DNA from: Methylorubrum populi | Lineage (GTDB): Bacteria > Pseudomonadota > Alphaproteobacteria > Rhizobiales > Beijerinckiaceae | Length of the DNA stretch: 64,000 nucleotides | Direction: 5' to 3' | Assembly: GCA_020741775.1 (NCBI GenBank) | Contig: DYYG01000042.1 | Location: forward strand, 1-64,000 | Shown here: piece by piece, positions 30,295-41,271 of the stretch | Position numbering within the stretch: position 1 is the first letter of the stretch | Layout of the letters: the number at the start of each line of letters is the position of its first letter | Position numbers and translations under genes: made by a program | Notes under the pieces: generated by a model | Databases searched by the model: none | The model's input: only the letters and a program-made list of their open reading frames with translations | What the model was told of the DNA's origin: nothing

Positions 30295-31488
30295 ATGGGC
30301 ATTCAGACCGGTCGACGCGTCGGAGTGGCGTTCGTTGGCATGGGCGGAGCCGTCGCGACGACCGCTATCGCCGGTATCGAGACCATCAAGTCCGGCTCGA
30401 ACCGTCTGGATGGGCTGCCTCTTGCTAACGTGTCGGTCGCAGGCTTGGCCGATTACAAGGATCTCGTCTTCGGCGGTTGGGATTTGAACGGCGACGACCT
30501 TGCCTCGGCCGCTACGGAACACGGCGTCCTCTCCCGCGAGGACATCGAGAACGGGGCCCAGGCGCTCAAGGGCATCACTCCCTGGCCTGCGGTGGGCTCG
30601 GCCAAGTTCTGCAAGAACATCGACGGAGCCAACCGCATCGTCGCCAAGGATCACCGTGAGACCGTCTCGGTCATCGCCAGCGATCTCAACCGCTTCCGCA
30701 AAGAGAGCAATCTCGACGAGGTCGTCGTCGTCAACCTCGCCTCGACCGAGCGCTGGCCCGACCTGTCGGACCCGGTGCTGAACTCGGTGGAAGCCTTCGA
30801 GAAGGGCCTGGATGCGAGCGACGAGTCGATCTCGCCGGCCATGCTCTACGCCTATGCGGCCATCAAGAGCGGCGTGCCCTACGCCAATTTCACGCCGAGC
30901 GTCGCCGCCGACGTGCCAGCCCTCCTCGAACTCGCCCGTGAGATGAACGTGCCGGTGGCCGGCAAGGACGGTAAGACCGGCCAGACCATGATGAAGACGG
31001 TGCTGGCGCCGGCCCTGAAGGCCCGCTCGCTCCACGTGGACGGCTGGTTCTCGACCAACATCCTCGGCAACCGCGACGGCTTGGCGCTGAACGACCCGAA
31101 CTCGCTTCAATCGAAGCTCAACACCAAGGGAACGGTGCTCGACTCGATTCTCGGCTACCCGGTCGAGGATCACCTCGTGCACATCCACTATTACCGCCCG
31201 CGCGGCGACGACAAGGAAGCCTGGGACAACGTCGACGTCACCGGCTTCATGGGCCAGCGCATGCAGATCAAGGTGAACTTCCTCTGCAAGGACTCGATCC
31301 TGGCCGCGCCCCTCGTCATCGAGATCGCCCGTGTGCTCGACCTCGCCAAGAGCCGTGGCGATGGCGGTGTGCAGGAGCAGCTCTCGACCTTCTTCAAGGC
31401 ACCGATGGTGAAGAACGGCCGTGGGCCGGAGCACGATTTCGGTAAGCAGCAGCGGATGCTGTTCGACTGGCTGGGCGCGCAGCACTGA
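30295..31488 (+). CDS. ino1: Inositol-3-phosphate synthase
   Basis: It converts glucose-6-phosphate to 1D-myo-inositol 3-phosphate with internal NAD redox. The 397-residue protein starts (ATG 30295) with RRVGVAFVGMGGAVATTAI, the NAD-binding loop. It has the family segments VPYANFTPSVAADVPAL, VAGKDGKTGQTMMKTVLAP (with the catalytic Lys) and STNILGNRDGLAL. The length matches the shorter bacterial/archaeal type. It is first in the co-directional cluster of sugar- and YcaO-type genes. Inositol synthesis is uncommon in alphaproteobacteria, which suggests the product feeds a dedicated pathway encoded downstream. Confidence 0.93.
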   Translation: MGIQTGRRVGVAFVGMGGAVATTAIAGIETIKSGSNRLDGLPLANVSVAGLADYKDLVFGGWDLNGDDLASAATEHGVLSREDIENGAQALKGITPWPAVGSAKFCKNIDGANRIVAKDHRETVSVIASDLNRFRKESNLDEVVVVNLASTERWPDLSDPVLNSVEAFEKGLDASDESISPAMLYAYAAIKSGVPYANFTPSVAADVPALLELAREMNVPVAGKDGKTGQTMMKTVLAPALKARSLHVDGWFSTNILGNRDGLALNDPNSLQSKLNTKGTVLDSILGYPVEDHLVHIHYYRPRGDDKEAWDNVDVTGFMGQRMQIKVNFLCKDSILAAPLVIEIARVLDLAKSRGDGGVQEQLSTFFKAPMVKNGRGPEHDFGKQQRMLFDWLGAQH

Positions 31489-31500
31489 GGCGCCGGTTCC

Positions 31501-32421
31501 GTGGCGACCGTTTCTCACACGGACCCGGCCGCTCCCGTCGCCCTGCGGGAACTGCTGGTCGAACTCGGTGACCTGAAGCGCGTCCGCTCGGCGGGCCGCC
31601 AGGGCTCCATCGCCGAACGTCTGTTCGCGCAAGGATGGTCGGCGCTCACCGGGGGTGCCGCGCCGGAAACGGTCGCCCTGGACATCACCGCCAAGGCTTT
31701 GGCCGCCGCGCGGCTCTGCGATCTCGACGCCGCGTTCCTCGCCGCTGCCGGTCTCGAGGCCGGGCAGGCCGCCGACGTGCTGGTGGCCGGGCTCGACGCC
31801 GTGGCCGGCGCGGTCGATCCTGACCTTCGGGAGCGGCTGCGCGTCTGCCTGCGCGAGCCGGCATCCCTGCCGGAGGGGCCGGTTCCCGGCTTCGTCGGGG
31901 CACTGGCGCAGCAGCCGCGGGCGGGCGTCACCTGCCCCGGCAAGCCGCGCATCCTGCTGGAGCCGCCGGAGAACCACGCCGAGCATTGCCTCGTTGTGGC
32001 GGTCTACGGTGTCCTCCTCAGCCCCTTCTACCGCGCGGATTCGACCACGGTGTTCCTCGCCGCCATGGCGCATCACTTCCACAACGCGGCGATGCCGGAT
32101 GCGGGCTTCACCGGCGAGATGCTCCTCGGCGACCATCTCTGGCCGATCGTCGGGCGCTGCTCGGAATGGGCTCTCGACGAGCTGGATCCTCCCTTGAGGG
32201 ACAGCGTCCGTGCCGCCCGGCTCATCCTGCCGGACGATGCCACGGCCGAGGGGAGGGCTTTTCACGCCGCCGACTCGATCGATCGGGTGCTTCAGATCGC
32301 TCAGCACCTGCGGGCGGCAACGCTGACCATGGACACGGTGCTCGGCGAGATGGAGCTGGTCCATGACGGACCGGTCAAGGCTTTCCAGGATCGCGTTCTG
32401 ACCGATATGCGCATCCCGTGA
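31501..32421 (+). CDS. HD-domain-like protein, putative phosphohydrolase
   Basis: A 306-residue protein starting at GTG 31501, 12 bases after ino1. The C-terminal half has an HD-type histidine pattern: ENHAEHCLVVAVYG, then AAMAHHFHNAAMPDAGF, and HAADSIDRVLQIAQHL carrying a late Asp. The N-terminal ~130 residues are Ala/Leu-rich helices with no domain I recognise. HD proteins commonly remove phosphate from nucleotides or sugar phosphates, so dephosphorylation of inositol phosphate or a later intermediate is one possibility. No inositol monophosphatase is in the cluster, and this protein could fill that gap. That is inference. Confidence 0.68.
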   Translation: MATVSHTDPAAPVALRELLVELGDLKRVRSAGRQGSIAERLFAQGWSALTGGAAPETVALDITAKALAAARLCDLDAAFLAAAGLEAGQAADVLVAGLDAVAGAVDPDLRERLRVCLREPASLPEGPVPGFVGALAQQPRAGVTCPGKPRILLEPPENHAEHCLVVAVYGVLLSPFYRADSTTVFLAAMAHHFHNAAMPDAGFTGEMLLGDHLWPIVGRCSEWALDELDPPLRDSVRAARLILPDDATAEGRAFHAADSIDRVLQIAQHLRAATLTMDTVLGEMELVHDGPVKAFQDRVLTDMRIP

Positions 32422-32452: not shown

Positions 32453-33634
32453 ATGATCCCCTTCGATCTCCTCTCGCCGGAGACCGGCCACCCGCTGAAG
32501 GCCGACGGCGCGCATGCCCTGCGCGATGTCGAGACCGGGGCGCGCTGGCCAGTCATCGACGGCATCCCGTATCTGCGCACCGGTCGCGACAGCCTCGTTG
32601 CGTCGGTTCTCCAGCATCTCGATGCCGGCCGCGAAGAGGAGGCTCTGGTTCTCCTCTTGGCCGATCAGGACGATTGGTGGACGGGTCCGCCCGCCGATCC
32701 CGAGGCGTTGCGGCGGCTGATCCGGGAGCGCCAGAACGCCACCCTGCGCCAGGCGGTCGATTGGCTCGGCTGGGGCCGGGTCGGGGATTACTTCGTCAAC
32801 CGCTGGACCGATCCGACCTTCCTGGCGGGCTTGAGCCTGCTGGAGGCCCACTGGAACAGCCCTGCCTGCGCCTTCGAGCTGGCCTGCGGTATCGGCCAGT
32901 ACCTGCGGGAGCTGAAGCGGCACGGAGTGAAGGTCGCCGGCGCGGATGTGGTCTTCGCCAAGCTCTGGGTCGCCCGGCACTGGGTGGTCGGAAAAGGTGC
33001 GCAACTGTTCTGCTTCGATGCGACCTCGCCGCATTGGCCGATTCCCGAGGCGCCGGTCGATCTCGCGATCTGCAACGACGCGTTCTACTTCCTCGACGAC
33101 AAGCCGTGCGTGCTCTCCTGCCTGCGCCAGACCGCCGGGGAAGAAGGATGGCTCGCCATCAGCCACATCCACAACAGCGGCCGGCCCGGCTTTTCCGCCG
33201 GCAAGGCGATCTCGGCGGCCGAGATCGAGGAGCTGTTTCCCGACGGGCTGGTCTACGACGATGCCGAACTGACCCGCGCCCTGGTGGAGGCGCGCGCGCC
33301 GCAGCCGCGCGAGCCGCGTGAGCTGCGCGGCTGCGAGGCCTTCTCCGTGGTGGCGGGGCCGGGAATGCGCCCGGCGCCGCGCCGGATCGTCGACGGCATC
33401 ACCCTGCCGCCGGCCGAGGCGGCCTTGCGGCTCAACCCGCTCTACAGGCCCGATGACGGTGCCTTCGCGATCCGCTGGCCCTCCGAACGGTACGAGGCGG
33501 AATACGCGCCCCTGGCGACCTACCCGCTGCATTCGGAGGGGCCGGCCGCCATCGCCTGGGCCGGCAAACCTGACGCGCCGGAGGCGGATCGGGTGCGCCG
33601 CCGCGAATATGTCGATCTGCCGGAGCGCTGGTGA
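32453..33634 (+). CDS. SAM-dependent methyltransferase with Trm112-like N-terminus
   Basis: A 393-residue protein. The N-terminal ~40 residues (LLSPETGHPLKADGAHALRD and WPVIDGIPYLR) resemble the Trm112p-like domain without zinc cysteines. A class I methyltransferase core follows, with motif I FELACGIGQYLREL, motif II AGADVVFAKLW and motif IV DLAICNDAFYFLDD. A C-terminal region of ~130 residues (ITLPPAEAALRLNPLYR) is unassigned. The stop overlaps the next start (TGATG), so it is coupled to the oxidoreductase gene. A small molecule in the glycoside pathway is the expected methyl acceptor, but O-, N- or C-methylation cannot be told apart. Confidence 0.8.
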   Translation: MIPFDLLSPETGHPLKADGAHALRDVETGARWPVIDGIPYLRTGRDSLVASVLQHLDAGREEEALVLLLADQDDWWTGPPADPEALRRLIRERQNATLRQAVDWLGWGRVGDYFVNRWTDPTFLAGLSLLEAHWNSPACAFELACGIGQYLRELKRHGVKVAGADVVFAKLWVARHWVVGKGAQLFCFDATSPHWPIPEAPVDLAICNDAFYFLDDKPCVLSCLRQTAGEEGWLAISHIHNSGRPGFSAGKAISAAEIEELFPDGLVYDDAELTRALVEARAPQPREPRELRGCEAFSVVAGPGMRPAPRRIVDGITLPPAEAALRLNPLYRPDDGAFAIRWPSERYEAEYAPLATYPLHSEGPAAIAWAGKPDAPEADRVRRREYVDLPERW

Positions 33635-34662
33635 TGGAGGAACGCATCGGCTGGGGCATCGTCGGCTATGGCTGGGTCGCCCGCGATTACATGGCGCCCG
33701 CGATCCGCGCCGCCGGTCACCGTCTCGTGGCGGTGGCCGATCCGGGTGAGGTCTCCCGAGCGGCGGCGGAGAAGGAGGGCGCCCGGGCCCATGCCGATCT
33801 CGCTGGGCTGATCGCCGAGCCCGAGGTCGAGGCGGTCTACGTCGCTACCCCCAATCACCTGCATCGCGGCGCCGTCGAGGCGCTCTGTGCCGCCGGGAAG
33901 GCGGTTCTGTGCGAGAAGCCGATGGCGGCCTCCCTCGCCGATGCCGAGGCGATGGCGGCTACCGTGCGCCGCTCCGGCGCCTTCTACGGTACCGCCTTCG
34001 ACCAGCGCCATCACCCCGGCCACCGTGCCATGCAGGCCCTGATCCGGGAAGGCCGGATCGGCACGGTGACGGCGATCCGCATCGTCTATGCCTGCTGGCT
34101 CGACCGGGGCTGGACCTCGTTCGAGGGCCAGGACAATTGGCGCATCGATCCGGCCCAGGCCGGCGGCGGCGCGCTGATGGATCTCGCCCCCCACGGCATC
34201 GACCTCGTCGATTTCCTGCTCGGCGAACCCATCGTCGAGATCGCCGCCATGACCCAGGCCCGCGCCCAGGATTACGCCGTCGATGACGGCGCCCTGCTGA
34301 TCGGCCGGACGGGGTCGGGCGCGCTCGCCCAGCTCAACGTCGCCTATAACTGTCCCGATGCGCTCCCCCGCCGCCGGCTCGAAGTGGTCGGCACCCGGGG
34401 GATGCTGACCGCCATCGATACGATGGGGCAGACCGCCGGCGGGTCGCTCACCCTGACCGAGGGCGTGCAGGGCGGTACCGAGACCATCGCCTTCGACCGG
34501 CAGGCCTCCCCCTTCCTCGAACAGGTGCGCGCCTTCGGCCGCGCCCTGCGCGACAGCGAGGCCCGTGCCGCCTGGGATGCCGAGCGCGATCTTCACACCA
34601 TGCGCCTGATCGCCCGCGCCTACGCGGCGGCCGGCGCGCCGGCTGGCCGCGACGCGGCCTGA
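33634..34662 (+). CDS. Gfo/Idh/MocA family oxidoreductase
   Basis: A 342-residue NAD(P)-dependent dehydrogenase. The nucleotide-binding segment is WGIVGYGWVARDYMAPAI. The family-defining catalytic Lys is in VLCEKPMAASLADAEAM (EKP motif), and GGALMDLAPHGIDLVDFLLG carries the Asp/His active-site pair. Members oxidise inositols, glucose-6-phosphate derivatives or UDP-sugars. Beside ino1 and an IolE-like TIM barrel, an inositol to inosose oxidation is attractive, as in Ido or IolG-type enzymes. A GTG three bases earlier (33631) is an alternative start. Confidence 0.88.
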   Translation: MEERIGWGIVGYGWVARDYMAPAIRAAGHRLVAVADPGEVSRAAAEKEGARAHADLAGLIAEPEVEAVYVATPNHLHRGAVEALCAAGKAVLCEKPMAASLADAEAMAATVRRSGAFYGTAFDQRHHPGHRAMQALIREGRIGTVTAIRIVYACWLDRGWTSFEGQDNWRIDPAQAGGGALMDLAPHGIDLVDFLLGEPIVEIAAMTQARAQDYAVDDGALLIGRTGSGALAQLNVAYNCPDALPRRRLEVVGTRGMLTAIDTMGQTAGGSLTLTEGVQGGTETIAFDRQASPFLEQVRAFGRALRDSEARAAWDAERDLHTMRLIARAYAAAGAPAGRDAA

Positions 34663-34696
34663 CAATATTTGGGAGGAGACCGGCTCATCGAGCCCA

Positions 34697-34711
34697 CACC
34701 TCAGGATGAGG
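34697..34711. repeat. Solo arm of repeat family A
   Basis: CACCTCAGGATGAGG matches one outer arm of the family A inverted repeats at 24724 and 36409. No partner arm is found nearby, so this appears to be a decayed or partial copy in the gap before the ycaO gene. Confidence 0.6.
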
Positions 34712-34754
34712 TTCTGGGTTGGGACAGAGCCGGTCAGCCGCGAACGGGACACCC

Positions 34755-36374
34755 ATGACAGCGACCGATGCTCTCGACCGGGACGACCGCGCCCGCCACG
34801 ACAGCCTGGCGGCGCCGCGACCCTATCGTCGCGGCTCGTCTCGCCGCATCGAGGGCCTGCCCGAGCGGCTGCCCGACGCGGTGCGCGCCTATCTCGACGT
34901 GCTGCCGGAGGGCCGCGTCGTCGGCTTCAACCTCGCCGGGCTCGACCGCACCGGCATCCCGGTCTGGTTCGTCGCCCTATTCCTCGACGATCCGTTCTAT
35001 GTCGGCGCGATGCCCTCCGGCATCGGCTACGGCGCCACCGACGACGAGGCGCTGATCGGCGCCGTGGCCGAGATCGCCGAGAACCTGATGCCCTCCGTCG
35101 CCCTTCTGCCGCGCCGGGGCGAGAACGAGATCGCCCGTTCCTATGACGATCTCGTGCGGGTCCATGGCGCCGGCTCGGTGGCCGATCCGCTGACGCTCTG
35201 CCTGCCCGCCGGTTCGCCGGTGGGCCGTGACACGCCCCTCGACTGGACCAAAGCGATCCGCGCCCGCACCGGCGAATCCGTCTGGATGCCGCTCGACATC
35301 GCGGCCACCGATTATTTCGAGCTGCGCAAGGGCTATCAGCCCTTCACCAACCTCATCACCAACGGGCTCGGCGCCGGGCCCGACGTGGAATTCGCCCTCG
35401 GTCACGGCCTGCTGGAATTGCTGCAGCGGGACGGCAACGGCCTGCTGTTCCGCGCCCTCGACCAGGGCGTGATGCTCGACCTCGACGGCATCGGCCCCGA
35501 GAACCGCGCCATGCTCGACCGGCTGGCGGGCCTCGGCATCCGGGCGCTGCCGAAATTCGCCACCGACCAGTTCGGCCTCACCAATCTCTACGTCGTCGGC
35601 TACGACACGGATCCGGCCCGGACGCCGTGCCCGGTCGCGCTCTCGGCCTGCGGCGAGGCCTGCGATCCCGATCGCGAGCGGGCCTTGCGCAAGGCCCTGC
35701 TGGAGTTTCAGGCGGCACGGGTGCGCAAGACCTTCGGGCACGGTCCGCTGGCCCTGGCCGACACGGTGGCACCTCCCGGCTACGTCGACGCCTTCATCCA
35801 GAAGGCGTTGCCGAGCCTCGATTTGGAGGAGAGCCGCGCGCTCCAGGCCATGCTCGCCTGGATCGATCTTTCGCCGGCCGAGTTGCGCGACGTGCTGAGC
35901 GCGACCGTCTATTCCGAGCGCAGCACCAAGGCGTTCTCCGAGTTGCCGACCACGGCGGCCCCCGACGGGCATGCCCGTGGCCGCATCGCCCGCGAGCGGT
36001 TGGAAGAGGCGGGATTCGACGTGCTCTACGTCGATTGCTCGCCGCCGGGCGGCGGAGTCGGTGTCGTCAAGGCCATCGTGCCGGGGCTCGAGGTCGAGAC
36101 CATGAGCTATTACCGCATCGGCGAACGCAACACCCGCAAGCTGATCGAGCGCGACCACCCGCTGATCCGCTTCGGTACGCCGACCGAGACGCTTCTGCCC
36201 GTGCGCCTGACGCCGGAGGCCTTGGAGCGCTTCGGCGGACAGCCGCTCTTCGATGTGGCGCTGGCGGAAGAGATCGTCGGCTCGCATTATCCGCTCTACC
36301 GCGAGCCGGAATCGCACCACGCCCCGTTCCGCTATGAGCGCCAGGGCCGTCGCGCTCAGGGAAGGCCGGCATGA
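34755..36374 (+). CDS. YcaO domain protein (stand-alone, no TfuA or precursor peptide nearby)
   Basis: YcaO enzymes activate an amide or carboxylate with ATP, usually making azolines or thioamides in peptides. This 539-residue protein has the first ATP/Mg segment AVAEIAENLMPS (ExxE). The second is NGLGAGPDVEFALGHGLLELLQRDGNG, where the usual ExxER reads ELLQR. The third is LLEFQAARVRKTF, which differs from the usual ExxQxR. It lacks the C-terminal PxPxP of azoline-forming members. No TfuA, ThiF/E1-like or dehydrogenase partner and no short precursor ORF are adjacent. The sugar-gene context suggests a non-peptide substrate. The precise reaction is unknown. Confidence 0.85.
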   Translation: MTATDALDRDDRARHDSLAAPRPYRRGSSRRIEGLPERLPDAVRAYLDVLPEGRVVGFNLAGLDRTGIPVWFVALFLDDPFYVGAMPSGIGYGATDDEALIGAVAEIAENLMPSVALLPRRGENEIARSYDDLVRVHGAGSVADPLTLCLPAGSPVGRDTPLDWTKAIRARTGESVWMPLDIAATDYFELRKGYQPFTNLITNGLGAGPDVEFALGHGLLELLQRDGNGLLFRALDQGVMLDLDGIGPENRAMLDRLAGLGIRALPKFATDQFGLTNLYVVGYDTDPARTPCPVALSACGEACDPDRERALRKALLEFQAARVRKTFGHGPLALADTVAPPGYVDAFIQKALPSLDLEESRALQAMLAWIDLSPAELRDVLSATVYSERSTKAFSELPTTAAPDGHARGRIARERLEEAGFDVLYVDCSPPGGGVGVVKAIVPGLEVETMSYYRIGERNTRKLIERDHPLIRFGTPTETLLPVRLTPEALERFGGQPLFDVALAEEIVGSHYPLYREPESHHAPFRYERQGRRAQGRPA

Positions 36375-36408
36375 TCGAGTCCGCCATCCCGGCTTATCCC
36401 GCTCTCGC

Positions 36409-36514
36409 CCTCATCCTGAGGTGCGGAGCGCAGCGAAGCCTCGAAGGATCTTCCAGATCTCGCGCGAGCACTGGACCATCCTTCGAGGCCGCTGCGCGGC
36501 ACCTCAGGATGAGG
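36409..36514. repeat. Long intergenic inverted repeat, family A, copy 2
   Basis: Outer arms CCTCATCCTGAGGTGC and its complement (36499-36514) flank inner arms GAAGCCTCGAAGGAT and ATCCTTCGAGGCC. The core differs from copy 1 but the arms are nearly identical. It lies inside the cluster between ycaO and the TIM-barrel gene and could reduce read-through or mark an insertion into the operon. Confidence 0.85.
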
Positions 36515-36552
36515 AGCGGGGTTGGACGCACCGCCAACGGAGAGGTGCAACC

Positions 36553-37446
36553 GTGACCCTGCGCTTCGCCTACAACACCAACGGCACCGCCCATCACCGC
36601 ATCGAGGACGCGATCCGCCTCATCAAGGATGCCGGCTATGACGGCGTGGCGCTGACGCTCGACATCCACCATCTCGACCCCTTCGCCGATACCTGGGTGG
36701 TCGAGGCCGACCGGATCGCCAGCCTCCTCGACCGCCTCGAACTCGGCTCCGTCATCGAGACCGGCGCCCGCTTCCTGCTCGATCCGAGCGCCAAGCACGA
36801 GCCGACCCTGGTGACCGCCGATGCGTCGGGCCGGGCGCGGCGTGTCGGCTTCCTCAAGCGGTCCATCGAGATCGGGAAGATCCTTCAGGCGGAAGCCGTC
36901 TCGTTCTGGGCCGGCGTGCCGAAGCCCGGAGTGGACCGGAACGAGGCCCGCGGCTGGCTGGTCGAGGGCCTGCGCGAAGTCGCCGATTTCGCGGCGGAGA
37001 AGGGCGTGGTGGCGGCGCTCGAGCCCGAGCCCAGCATGTTGATCGAGACCCTCGACGATTTTGCGGGCCTCGATCTGCCGGGCCTGTCGCTGGCCCTGGA
37101 TACCGGCCATTGCCTGGTGACGCAGGAACGCGACCCGGCGCAGGCCGTGCACGAATTCGCCGCCCGCCTCGGCACCGTCGCCATCGAGGATATGAAGCGG
37201 GGCGAGCACATCCACCTGCCCTTCGGCGAGGGCGACATGGACGTGCCCGCCGTGCTCGACGCCCTCGATGCGGTGAACTTCGAAAAACTCGTCTGCGTGG
37301 AGCTGTCGCGCGATTCGCACCGCGCCGACGTGATGGTGGGCCAAGCCCTCAACTACGTGCGCACCTGCCGCCGTCCCGGTCCCGGCCTTCCGGCGCCGGA
37401 TACCGCGCCGCGCGAGACCGCCGTTCCGGGGCTGCCGACACCATGA
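36553..37446 (+). CDS. Xylose isomerase-like TIM barrel protein (sugar phosphate isomerase/epimerase)
   Basis: A 297-residue AP_endonuc_2/IolE-like TIM barrel. GTG 36553 begins VTLRFAYNTNGTAHHRIEDA. Divalent-metal ligands fit ALEPEPSMLIE (Glu), LALDTGHCLV (Asp/His), IEDMKRGEHIHLPFGEGDMD (Asp/His) and CVELSRDSHRAD (Glu). The family includes inosose dehydratase IolE and inosose isomerase IolI, a good fit to an inositol-derived keto sugar. It overlaps the glycosyltransferase gene by ATGA. The track ORF extends upstream through the repeat and is not real there. Confidence 0.82.
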   Translation: MTLRFAYNTNGTAHHRIEDAIRLIKDAGYDGVALTLDIHHLDPFADTWVVEADRIASLLDRLELGSVIETGARFLLDPSAKHEPTLVTADASGRARRVGFLKRSIEIGKILQAEAVSFWAGVPKPGVDRNEARGWLVEGLREVADFAAEKGVVAALEPEPSMLIETLDDFAGLDLPGLSLALDTGHCLVTQERDPAQAVHEFAARLGTVAIEDMKRGEHIHLPFGEGDMDVPAVLDALDAVNFEKLVCVELSRDSHRADVMVGQALNYVRTCRRPGPGLPAPDTAPRETAVPGLPTP

Positions 37447-38672
37447 GAATCTGCTTCGTCAGTCGTCGCTACTTTCCGGCGATCTCCGGCATGAGCGTCT
37501 ACGCCCAGAACCTATTGCGGGAGGTGGCGGGCGCCGGCCACGACGTCACGATGATCTCGCAATATCGGGGGGATGCGTTCGGAACGCGGGTCTATGGCGG
37601 AGGGCCGCCGCCGTCGGTGCCGAGCGTGCGGGTGATCGGCCTCGAACAACGCGGCGAGCAGGAAGGCGGCGATTTCGAGCGCGACATCGACGAGATCGTC
37701 GAGACGATCTGCGCCGAGCACGGGAAGAAGCCCTTCGACGTGCTGCACGCGCAATATGGCTATCCGACAGGCTGGGCGGTGCTGCTGGCCGGCAAGCGAC
37801 TTGGCGTGCCGACCGTGGTCTCGATTCAGGGCGGTGACGGCCATTGGGTCGGCTCGTGCTGCGAGACCCACCGCGTCGCCATGGTCGAGGTGCTGGCCCA
37901 TGCCAACGCCCTGCTGATCGGCGGCCAATCCTTCGTCGGCGAGGTCTGCGACCGGCTCGGCTCGGATCCGGCCCGCTTCACCATCGTCCCTGGTGCGGTC
38001 GACACCGCGCGCTTCACGCCCGGCGGGCGGGAGCTGGAGGACGAGGAGCCGGTGCGGCTGCTCTATCACGGCCGGGTCGACCGCCGGAAAGGCGTGCTCG
38101 ACTTCCTCGACGCGCTGGAGCGCCTGTGGGAGGCCGGCGTGCCGTTCGACGCGGTGATCTCCGGCATCGGGCCGGATGTCGAGGCTGCCCGCGCCAGGGC
38201 CGACGAGATCGGTTTCACCTCGGCGCAGGTCCGCTTCACCGGCTATGCCGATTACGACACCGTGCCGGATCTCTACCGCGAGGCGGACGTGTTCGTCTCC
38301 CCGACCTACGCGGAGGGCTTTTCCAACACGATCCTGGAGGCGATGGCCTCGGGGCTGGCGGTCGTCTCGACCCATTCCGTTGGCGTGTCGGATTGCCTGC
38401 GTGACGGCGAGAACGGCCTGCTGGTCAATCCCGGTGACGTCCGAGCCCTGACCGGCGCCTTGCGCCGGGTGGTGGAGGATGAGGATCTGCGCACCCGACT
38501 CGCCGAGAGCGGACTCGAGGAGTGCCGCAGAGTCTATTCGTGGACGGCCGTCGGGCGGCAGATCATGGAAGTCTATGCTCAGGTCGCCGGGGAGCGGCCG
38601 CACACGGATTTCGCCGAGACGCTGCCCGCCGATCCGACCTGCCGCTTCCGCAAGGAGCCGCACCTGCTGTGA
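37443..38672 (+). CDS. GT4 family glycosyltransferase
   Basis: A 409-residue retaining GT-B enzyme. N-terminal acceptor domain: RRYFPAISGMSVYAQNLLRE. C-terminal donor domain: LLYHGRVDRRKGVLDFLDAL and the ExFGxxxxE-type loop TYAEGFSNTILEAMASGL. MshA of mycothiol synthesis and BshA of bacillithiol synthesis are GT4 enzymes followed by a PIG-L deacetylase, as here, and MshA uses inositol 3-phosphate as acceptor. That parallel supports an inositol-glycoside product but does not prove it. The start overlaps the upstream stop (ATGA) and the end overlaps the deacetylase start (GTGA). Confidence 0.88.
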   Translation: MRICFVSRRYFPAISGMSVYAQNLLREVAGAGHDVTMISQYRGDAFGTRVYGGGPPPSVPSVRVIGLEQRGEQEGGDFERDIDEIVETICAEHGKKPFDVLHAQYGYPTGWAVLLAGKRLGVPTVVSIQGGDGHWVGSCCETHRVAMVEVLAHANALLIGGQSFVGEVCDRLGSDPARFTIVPGAVDTARFTPGGRELEDEEPVRLLYHGRVDRRKGVLDFLDALERLWEAGVPFDAVISGIGPDVEAARARADEIGFTSAQVRFTGYADYDTVPDLYREADVFVSPTYAEGFSNTILEAMASGLAVVSTHSVGVSDCLRDGENGLLVNPGDVRALTGALRRVVEDEDLRTRLAESGLEECRRVYSWTAVGRQIMEVYAQVAGERPHTDFAETLPADPTCRFRKEPHLL

Positions 38673-39430
38673 CGCGAACCGCGCTCGCCCTCTCGCCGCA
38701 TCTCGACGATGCCGCCTTCTCGGCCGGCGGCACACTGGCCCGGCTCGCCGCGCGCGGGTGGCAGGTCGTGATGGCGACGATCTTCACTGCCTCGGTCGCC
38801 CATCCGCAAGGCTTCGCCCTGGCCTGTCAGCTCGACAAGGGTCTGGCTCCCGAGATTGACTACATGGCTCTGCGCCGTGAGGAGGATCGGGCCGCCGCCC
38901 GGGCGCTGGGCATCGACGAGCCGGTCCACCTGCCGTTCCGCGAGGCGCCGCACCGGGGTTACGGCTCCGCCCCCGAACTCTTCGGCGAGCTCAGTCCCGA
39001 CGACAGGATCGGGCCGAACCTCGCCGACGCGTTCGAGCGGCTAATCCGCGATACCAACCCCGATTTGATCCTCGCGCCGCAGGGTGTCGGTGGCCATGTC
39101 GATCACCTGCAGGTGGTACGGGCCCTGCGCGGCGCTCAGCCGCCGCTGCCGGTTCTGTGGTGGCGGGACTTTCCCTACACCGTGCGCACCGCCGAACCGA
39201 AAGAGCCGCTCAGGGCCCACTTCGCGCATCTCCCGGAGCAGATCGTCCATCTCGATTCGGAGGCCGAGCGGCGAAAGGAGGAGGCCTGCGCCGCCTACGC
39301 CTCGCAGATTGGCTTTCAGTTCGGTGGTCTCGAAGGATTGCGCGACCGCCTGCGGGCGGAGGATCGGGTCGAGCGGTTCCATCTGCTGGGAAACCTCCCG
39401 ACCGATCTGCGCGATGCCGGATTCGCCTGA
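38669..39430 (+). CDS. PIG-L family deacetylase
   Basis: GTG 38669 gives 253 residues. The zinc site is seen as LALSPHLDDAAFSAGG near the N-terminus (His-x-Asp-Asp) and VGGHVDHLQVVRAL (His-x-x-His-type second motif). PIG-L/LmbE enzymes hydrolyse N-acetylglucosaminyl groups, as MshB does for GlcNAc-Ins and BshB for GlcNAc-malate. It is coupled to the GT4 gene by GTGA overlap, suggesting it acts directly on that glycoside. It ends 17 bases inside the UDG-like gene. Confidence 0.87.
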   Translation: MTRTALALSPHLDDAAFSAGGTLARLAARGWQVVMATIFTASVAHPQGFALACQLDKGLAPEIDYMALRREEDRAAARALGIDEPVHLPFREAPHRGYGSAPELFGELSPDDRIGPNLADAFERLIRDTNPDLILAPQGVGGHVDHLQVVRALRGAQPPLPVLWWRDFPYTVRTAEPKEPLRAHFAHLPEQIVHLDSEAERRKEEACAAYASQIGFQFGGLEGLRDRLRAEDRVERFHLLGNLPTDLRDAGFA

Positions 39431-40040
39431 GGCGCCCAAGAGCCTGCGCGATCCCGCCGTCCTCGCGGCGCGCCGGGCGATGGCCGATGCGCCCCATATC
39501 CGGCCGCTGCGCGCCCTGGCCCGCCGCATCGCCGAGGAGCGCAAGGCCGAGGTGCCGGATCCCGATCCCCTCGATGGGGGCGTCGATGCCAGGCTGCTGC
39601 TGCTCCTGGAAACGCCGGGTCCCTCCATCGGCCGGACGGGCTTCGTTTCCCGCGACAACGCCACCGGCACCGCCGCCAACCTGTTCCGCTTCCTGAGGGA
39701 AGCCGGCATTGCCCGGCGCGACACGTTGATCTGGAACGCCGTCCCCTGGGTCATCCATGCTCCCGGCGCCCTCAACCGCGCCCCGCGCCGCTCGGAGGCG
39801 GCGGCCGCCGCCCCCTATTTCGCGCCGTTGCTGGCTCTTCTGCCGAGACTTGCCGTGGTCGTTCCGGCCGGGCGGTTCGCGCAAGACGCCGCAGCGCCGC
39901 TCAAGCAGGCGCGGCCGGACCTGCCGGTGGTGCCGATCCCGCATCCGAGCCCGACCTATGTCTGCACCTCGCCCAGCGTGCGGGAGCGGATCCTGGCCGG
40001 GCTGTCGCAAGCGGCGGCCCAGCTCGGGCCCGTGCCCTGA
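39414..40040 (+). CDS. Uracil-DNA glycosylase superfamily protein
   Basis: A 208-residue protein of the UDG fold. Motif 1 region: LLLETPGPSIGRTGFVSRDN. Middle: TLIWNAVPWVIHAPGA. Motif 2: PIPHPSPTYVCT (HPSP). These match family 4/5-like or SMUG-like UDG-fold proteins more than classical Ung. ATG 39414 lies inside the PIG-L gene (17-base overlap), so it is translated with the cluster although DNA repair has no obvious link to it. Track ORF 39084-40040 includes upstream out-of-gene sequence. Confidence 0.78.
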   Translation: MPDSPEAPKSLRDPAVLAARRAMADAPHIRPLRALARRIAEERKAEVPDPDPLDGGVDARLLLLLETPGPSIGRTGFVSRDNATGTAANLFRFLREAGIARRDTLIWNAVPWVIHAPGALNRAPRRSEAAAAAPYFAPLLALLPRLAVVVPAGRFAQDAAAPLKQARPDLPVVPIPHPSPTYVCTSPSVRERILAGLSQAAAQLGPVP

Positions 40041-40215
40041 AAATCGGGCTATCGTGGCGGCATTCGTGGTGCAGGGCTGGGTTGCGGCGGCGTCCGTCGC
40101 TGGCCTTTGGCGGGCGAAGCGCCTAAATGGCCGCAAGGCGGGTCGTCATCGACACCGCTTCGGGCGCCCACGGCGCAAGGCGCGGGCGACCAGCAGAGGC
40201 GGACGCCGTTCTCAC

Positions 40216-41271
40216 ATGAATTTTGCCGGGAAGCACAGGACGGTCGCCAAGACCGAGCCGGCCGAGGCGAGCCGCGAGGCTGACGCCGCATCGAAAGCCG
40301 GGTCGAAGCGCGGGCATTTCGCCTGGATCGGCACCATCGCGAGCCTCGTCCTCATCGTCGCCTCCCTCGGCGTGCTGTGGAAGCTCTCCGAAGAGATCAC
40401 CTGGGCCGAGCTGCACCGGGCCTTCACCGCCGTCACCGGAGCCCAGCTCTTCGAGGCCTTCGCCGCCGTCGGCGTCAGCTACCTGTTCCTGACCTGCTAC
40501 GACGCGCTGGCCCTGCGCCAGCTCAGGCTGAAGGTGCCCTACAGCATCACCGCGCTGGCCTCCTTCACGAGCTACGCGGTCAGCTTCACCCTCGGCTTTC
40601 CCCTCATCACCGCAGCAACGATCCGCTACTGGATCTACTCGAAGCGCGGGCTCTCGGCGGCCAAGATCGCCGCGCTCACGGTGATTGCCGGCTTCACCTT
40701 CTGGCTCGGCATGGGTGTGGTGCTGGGTTTCAGCCTCATCATCGAGGCGGGACAGCTCGCGAGCCTCACCTTCAAGAGCATCGGCGTCAACACCAGCGTG
40801 CGCCTCAATCAGGTGCTCGGCTTCGGCACCCTCGGCCTGGTGCTCGGCTATCTCGCCTGGGTCTCGGTGAAGCGGCGCTACATCAAGGTGCGGCATTGGC
40901 AGCTCGAATTGCCGGGCGCGACCGTCTCCTTCAGCCAGATGGTGGTCGGCATCGGCGATGTCTGTGCCGCCGCGGGCGTGCTCTACCTGCTGATGCCCGA
41001 AGGCCTGAATCTCGGCTTCACCACCTTCCTGGCGATCTACGTGCTTGCCGCCATGCTCGGCATCGCTTCCAACGCGCCGGGCGGCATCGGTGTGTTCGAG
41101 GCGACGGTGCTGCTCGCCCTGTCCTACCTGCCCCGCGAGGCGGTATTAGGCTCGCTGCTGCTGTTTCGCGTCTGCTACTACCTCGTTCCCTTCGTTCTCG
41201 CCCTGTTGATGCTCGGCCTCTACGAAGGAGTCTTGCGCCTGCGCCGCCGCCGGGCCGCCAACGACCCGTGA
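40216..41271 (+). CDS. UPF0104 / lysylphosphatidylglycerol synthase transmembrane-region protein
   Basis: A 351-residue membrane protein with about eight helices. The core matches the flippase-like LPG_synthase_TM domain: YDALALRQLRLKVPY, FPLITAATIRYWIYSKRG, and SNAPGGIGVFEATVL. The catalytic aminoacyl-transfer domain of MprF is absent. The first ~35 residues are a charged cytoplasmic tail. Such proteins are suspected lipid translocators. After a glycoside cluster it could move or export a glycolipid product, but it may equally be an independent gene, since 175 bases separate it from the UDG gene. ATG 40216 is the only sensible start. Confidence 0.85.
   Translation: MNFAGKHRTVAKTEPAEASREADAASKAGSKRGHFAWIGTIASLVLIVASLGVLWKLSEEITWAELHRAFTAVTGAQLFEAFAAVGVSYLFLTCYDALALRQLRLKVPYSITALASFTSYAVSFTLGFPLITAATIRYWIYSKRGLSAAKIAALTVIAGFTFWLGMGVVLGFSLIIEAGQLASLTFKSIGVNTSVRLNQVLGFGTLGLVLGYLAWVSVKRRYIKVRHWQLELPGATVSFSQMVVGIGDVCAAAGVLYLLMPEGLNLGFTTFLAIYVLAAMLGIASNAPGGIGVFEATVLLALSYLPREAVLGSLLLFRVCYYLVPFVLALLMLGLYEGVLRLRRRRAANDP

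Follow-up and report, generated by a model that had tools for sequence, protein, structure and literature searches.

The window analysed here, the whole stretch of 64,000 nucleotides of Methylorubrum populi DNA, contains a block of forward-strand genes in the order Ino1–HD–methyltransferase–Gfo/Idh–YcaO–TIM barrel–GT4–PIG-L (Table 1). The PF02624 match of the YcaO protein spans residues 91–446 and scores 167.9 bits against a gathering score of 25.7; the domain score and the fold together place it in the YcaO superfamily. The predicted structure (pLDDT 77.6) is closest to MjYcaO (Foldseek 1e-17, TMt 0.73), and for this reason the YcaO fold is predicted to be intact. In a family search for paralogues, this was the only YcaO copy in the genome. 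Against the SagD model the protein scores 88 bits, under the cut-off of 219, and PADLOC returned nothing of relevance for YcaO.

Table 1. Genes of the ycaO block and ATP-site motifs of the YcaO protein, in window coordinates (Ec, E. coli YcaO numbering)
Feature	Coordinates	Strand	Details
ino1, myo-inositol-phosphate synthase, first block gene	30295..31488	+	PF07994 5e-65, PF01658 3e-34
HD-domain protein, likely phosphohydrolase (HDDC2/YfbR-like fold, weak)	31501..32421	+	weak HD_3 in 13/13 members
SAM-dependent methyltransferase	32453..33634	+	PF08241 5e-08; missing from Hymenobacter cluster
Gfo/Idh/MocA dehydrogenase	33631..34662	+	PF22725 8e-31
YcaO of ExxQR clade	34755..36374	+	539 aa, C-terminal extension conserved, PF02624 4.8e-49
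Motif 1 GAVAEIAEN	35058..35084	+	aa 102-110; E106/E109 kept (Ec E75/E78); Ser71 replaced by Gly
Motif 2 ELLQRDG	35415..35435	+	aa 221-227; E221, R225 kept; Q224 replaces Ec E202
Motif 3 EFQAAR	35703..35720	+	aa 317-322; E317, R322 = Ec E290, R295; Ec Q293 replaced by A/S/G
Xylose-isomerase-like TIM barrel (isomerase, epimerase or dehydratase)	36553..37446	+	PF01261 7e-33
GT4 glycosyltransferase, remotely MshA/BshA-like	37443..38672	+	PF00534 2e-33; MshA 85 bits vs cut-off 462
PIG-L family deacetylase, remotely BshB1/MshB-like	38669..39430	+	PF02585 6e-20; BshB1 38 vs cut-off 182
Uracil-DNA-glycosylase-superfamily gene	39414..40040	+	PF03167 2e-12; overlaps PIG-L by 17 nt

The preliminary description of this gene as a stand-alone YcaO holds for its domain architecture, but not for its context, which is operon-like. 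The same description was right that TfuA and E1-like genes are missing, none being present among the ten cluster proteins scanned, and hence there is no adjacent TfuA of the kind that accompanies TfuA-dependent thioamide-forming YcaOs. It was wrong in stating that there is no dehydrogenase partner: a Gfo/Idh/MocA NAD(P) enzyme lies directly upstream of YcaO and is closest to the model of IolG, inositol 2-dehydrogenase (TIGR04380, 1.5e-34), at 119 bits, below the cut-off of 355. This enzyme differs from the FMN-type dehydrogenase of azoline clusters. The reported lack of a short precursor ORF also stands, as the gaps of the window hold no conserved small ORF, the search having returned only hits to a dispersed repeat, plus a single weak match ascribed to chance. 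The cctcatcctgaggtgc-like core of the dispersed repeat lies in two gaps, at 36375-36552 and at about 34690-34754 of the window; the repeat-bearing gap after ycaO is absent from most sister species.

The model of the HD-domain protein (pLDDT 83.8) matches HDDC2 in Foldseek with probability 0.9 but E>1, so that the fold match is not significant. Identification of this protein as EboA was considered and rejected (hhalign probability 0.1). The genome also carries a second Ino1 of a different type (G000:C67:15890-16216).

Conservation and neighbours of the gene block

The block is conserved across four genera in two phyla: Methylobacterium, Lichenibacterium, Roseomonas and Hymenobacter. The 74 loci of Methylobacterium and its vicinity (L051-L124) show an unchanged gene order as far as their contigs extend. 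The block recurs in Lichenibacterium, where PIG-L was found at only one of two loci. In Roseomonas haemaphysalidis and Hymenobacter volaticus, both found in a plasmid collection, the block is plasmid-borne and has an additional MBL-fold gene ahead of YcaO, and nearly all Roseomonas block genes overlap by 4-10 nt. Ino1 identity is 84-96% in Methylobacterium, 73-74% in Lichenibacterium and 71% in Roseomonas, and the Roseomonas and Hymenobacter YcaOs were matched at 42-46% identity. MBL-fold genes were seen by the cluster outside Methylobacterium and Lichenibacterium at L141 (11201-12052), L142 (14165-14995) and L130 (about 4919, minus strand). In Methylobacterium, the cluster is followed by two genes, together at 39414-41271 of the window: the uracil-DNA-glycosylase-superfamily gene and an MprF-like flippase (LPG_synthase_TM). 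Neither turned up at the loci of Lichenibacterium; the former gene, seen only in Methylobacterium, is probably not core to the block.

Among the Methylobacterium species genomes, 108 of 111 encode YcaO with an identity of about 80% or more. G172 was rejected as a ycaO-less genome, given that its contig ends inside the TIM barrel gene; the truly cluster-less genomes are G178 and G197, both NodA-positive and, judging by NodA, presumably nodulating species. Altogether three Methylobacterium genomes are NodA-positive, the third of which (G198) retains the cluster; the naive p-value for the association of NodA with ycaO loss is 5e-4, with the proviso that the two losses may be one event. The ycaO-less genomes retain one Ino1, which by score resembles the other-type Ino1. 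Loss of carotenoid genes in Mb. nodulans has been explained by its niche (PMC8561711). Many hosts of the ycaO clade were isolated from leaf, air or lichen.

Outside the block, ycaO occurs next to UV-repair genes. Only 4 of 48 Microvirga genomes match ycaO; in three of these (L125, L126 3179-11497, L157), the gene is preceded on the same strand by a RecJ-like DHH gene, UvdE (PF03851, 4e-30) and a gene of the spore photoproduct lyase (SPL) family (TIGR03886, 5e-186), with another SPL upstream, and the fourth genome contains a ycaO fragment at the same site. These three Microvirga genomes have no GT4 or TIM barrel orthologues. This is the main difficulty for a role tied strictly to the pathway, outside of which the enzyme may be able to work. 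Two SPL-family genes (PF20903, 1e-73 and 4e-33) lie immediately downstream of the Roseomonas block, possibly as coincidental neighbours, especially on a 421-kb plasmid.

Altered ATP-site motifs in the ExxQR clade

In an alignment to E. coli YcaO, with the residues that we take to contact ATP as the reference, E106, E109, E221, R225, E317 and R322 correspond to E75, E78, E199, R203, E290 and R295, whereas Q224 falls on E202 and A320 on Q293. The reading of motif 2 as ELLQR in place of ExxER is thus borne out (codon CAG at 35424). Q224 is invariant in all 81 clade sequences, drawn from Methylobacterium, Microvirga, Lichenibacterium and one uncultured alphaproteobacterium, and also in the Roseomonas and Hymenobacter YcaOs; the nine readable ordinary YcaOs of the same order, which are rhizobial and have the usual motif 3, all carry E at this position (9/9). 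Because of this invariance and the E of the ordinary rhizobial YcaOs, the motif changes, as read from the alignments, are evidently not due to chance. For motif 3, the sequence EFQAAR is present as first noted, but its Q is not conserved, other members having EFCSSR, EFASSR or EFCGSR; the real change, judged from these sequences, is the replacement of E. coli Q293 by A, S or G with E290 and R295 retained.

The alteration of the ATP motifs is a clade-wide feature rather than a misreading, and is broader than first described. Further fixed differences from the ordinary YcaOs are K61 to Y92, S71 to G102, S184 to G206 and R286 to K313, and most clade members have other, variable residues at the positions of N187 and E191. 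The full canonical nucleotide-site set is therefore not present: K61, S71, S184, E202 and R286 are replaced throughout, and N187, E191 and Q293 mostly. With E75, E78, E199, R203, E290 and R295 (E. coli numbering) retained, the site may still be able to bind Mg-ATP. The C-terminal PxPxP is indeed absent, from all 81 clade sequences (0/81), but this is no special feature: since ordinary comparators and E. coli YcaO also lack it, its absence carries no weight.

The ExxQR clade is monophyletic (support 100/99; stem 2.14 changes per column); in the same tree the E. coli YcaO branch is very long and its placement unsure. When more members were sought at the class and phylum level, only Methylobacterium matched, in a thin sampling. 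The ExxQR YcaO has the same fold, and the same core acidic residues and arginines in its three motifs, as the thioamide-forming MjYcaO/MkYcaO and the rhizobial YcaOs; it differs from them in ExxQR, in GYG for GKG, in the missing motif-3 Gln, in the C-terminal extension, and in a non-peptide gene context that includes no TfuA. With the TOMM cyclodehydratases (LynD, TruD, McbD) it has the YcaO domain in common, but not the E1-like/ThiF partner, the linked precursor or the C-terminal PxPxP.

A candidate cyclitol/amino-sugar pathway and its alternatives

The enzyme families of the block suggest cyclitol/amino-sugar chemistry, and a small-molecule role of YcaO inside the block is likely. The small-molecule substrate suggested earlier would fit the conserved neighbour genes, but nothing specifically supports a sugar carboxylate, the neighbours being more indicative of an inositol/amino-sugar. 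We infer the following pathway, from substrate to product. Ino1 would make inositol phosphate, from which the HD protein would take off the phosphate; the ring would be oxidised, then isomerised or dehydrated, by the Gfo/Idh enzyme and the TIM barrel protein; GT4 would add an N-acetylamino sugar, whose amine PIG-L would free; and in most lineages the methyltransferase would decorate the product. In YcaO chemistry, a carbonyl oxygen is phosphorylated by ATP and a nucleophile then attacks; MysC performs a comparable ATP-dependent amine coupling in mycosporine synthesis. By analogy, YcaO with Mg-ATP would phosphorylate the carbonyl oxygen (of an amide or vinylogous acid) of an intermediate, and an amine (or hydroxyl) would replace the activated oxygen.

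That YcaO uses ATP to couple small molecules, in a cyclitol/amino-sugar pathway that is probably photoprotective, is a proposition to which we give even chances. The more specific proposal, that its substrate is a small non-ribosomal cyclitol/amino-sugar to which an amine is coupled via an activated carbonyl in building a bacterial sunscreen, is tentative and falls somewhat short of that. Several independent but circumstantial lines make a photoprotective product plausible: the UV-repair neighbours in Roseomonas and Microvirga, the provenance of many hosts, the NodA-positive status of the two ycaO-less genomes and the UVA absorbers of the genus. The UVA absorbers of Methylobacterium are reportedly polar. 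They are described as typical of the genus (Yoshida 2017 and Kamo 2018, according to the passages in PMC12573535 and PMC9664959 that cite them), and it is our guess that the product is one of them, such as methylobamine.

Two sunscreen-related systems offer comparisons. The EBO cluster family has been proposed to make cyclitol compounds (PMC5133447), and the Nostoc EBO cluster is required for export of a sunscreen precursor (PMC6282210). Resemblance to EBO clusters (the Ino1-containing variant of Streptomyces and Gemmatirosa) is found in Ino1 (37-41% identity) and the TIM barrel (46-52%), which recur together there; in the Streptomyces clusters, the figures are 37% and 46-47%. Unlike EBO clusters, the present one has no eboA, eboB, UbiA (eboC), eboE or eboF, and the EBO loci examined contain no YcaO; a TIM/MBL lead in Gemmatirosa proved to be an EBO-type locus without YcaO. 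In the EBO clusters at L150, L151 and L156 (Streptomyces and Gemmatirosa), Ino1 is accompanied by a second TIM-barrel gene, and no sugar phosphate cyclase of the usual kind was seen. The pathway of mycosporine-like amino acids (mysA-D) combines a cyclitol chromophore, a methyltransferase and ATP-dependent amine coupling, with a skeleton from sedoheptulose phosphate. Here the analogy is in mechanism only: the window cluster has no DHQS-like cyclase, ATP-grasp or ligase, and its carbon skeleton would derive from inositol.

The best surviving alternative, which we nevertheless consider unlikely, is that YcaO modifies a protein encoded elsewhere, for instance through thioamide formation in a protein of the ribosome or of DNA repair, and that its linkage to sugar genes reflects shared regulation. 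Substrates of the characterised YcaO enzymes are RiPP precursors or other peptides and proteins (PMC13063428), and E. coli YcaO sets a precedent by acting on uL16, whose gene is not nearby (PMC13063428). The closest fold, MjYcaO, is a protein modifier, and the Microvirga ycaO genes without GT4 or TIM barrel orthologues agree with such a role. However, ycaO is fixed mid-block in four genera and two phyla, beyond what shared regulation needs, and the neighbours include no TfuA.

A second, distinctly improbable, possibility is that the cluster produces GlcN-inositol or a low-molecular-weight thiol resembling mycothiol, YcaO standing in for the cysteine ligase MshC. Compared with the mycothiol set (Ino1, MshA, MshB, MshC, MshD), Ino1, the MshA-like GT4 and the MshB/BshB1-like PIG-L are present in outline, but all three are far under the mycothiol equivalog cut-offs (44 vs 638, 85 vs 462 and 21 vs 224 bits, respectively), and the scheme has no place for YcaO and three further enzymes, Gfo/Idh, the TIM barrel and the methyltransferase, which would be idle. 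We give little credence to an inositol/amino-sugar envelope glycan or lipid head group exported by the downstream flippase: GT4, PIG-L, the LPG_synthase_TM gene of Methylobacterium and an mdoH-like GT at the end of the Roseomonas operon would suit it, but no flippase gene turned up at the loci of Lichenibacterium, Roseomonas or Hymenobacter, and ATP-dependent carbonyl activation would have no apparent use. Least probable is a YcaO turned binding or scaffold protein without ATP chemistry, for which the loss of E202 and, in most members, of N187, E191 and Q293 would speak, against the six invariant acids and arginines and a remaining core under strong constraint.

The cluster is near-universal in Methylobacterium, a dominant leaf genus, yet the literature searched, on YcaO in combination with Methylobacterium, inositol, sunscreens or mycosporines, contains no account of it. 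As far as we have found, no other YcaO has been linked to a small molecule, so that one housed in a conserved inositol/amino-sugar operon would be the first. If the coupling role proposed here is true, this would be a new job for a family whose known work is confined to peptides and proteins, and the ExxQR clade would tell which residues of the ATP site may change when the substrate changes.
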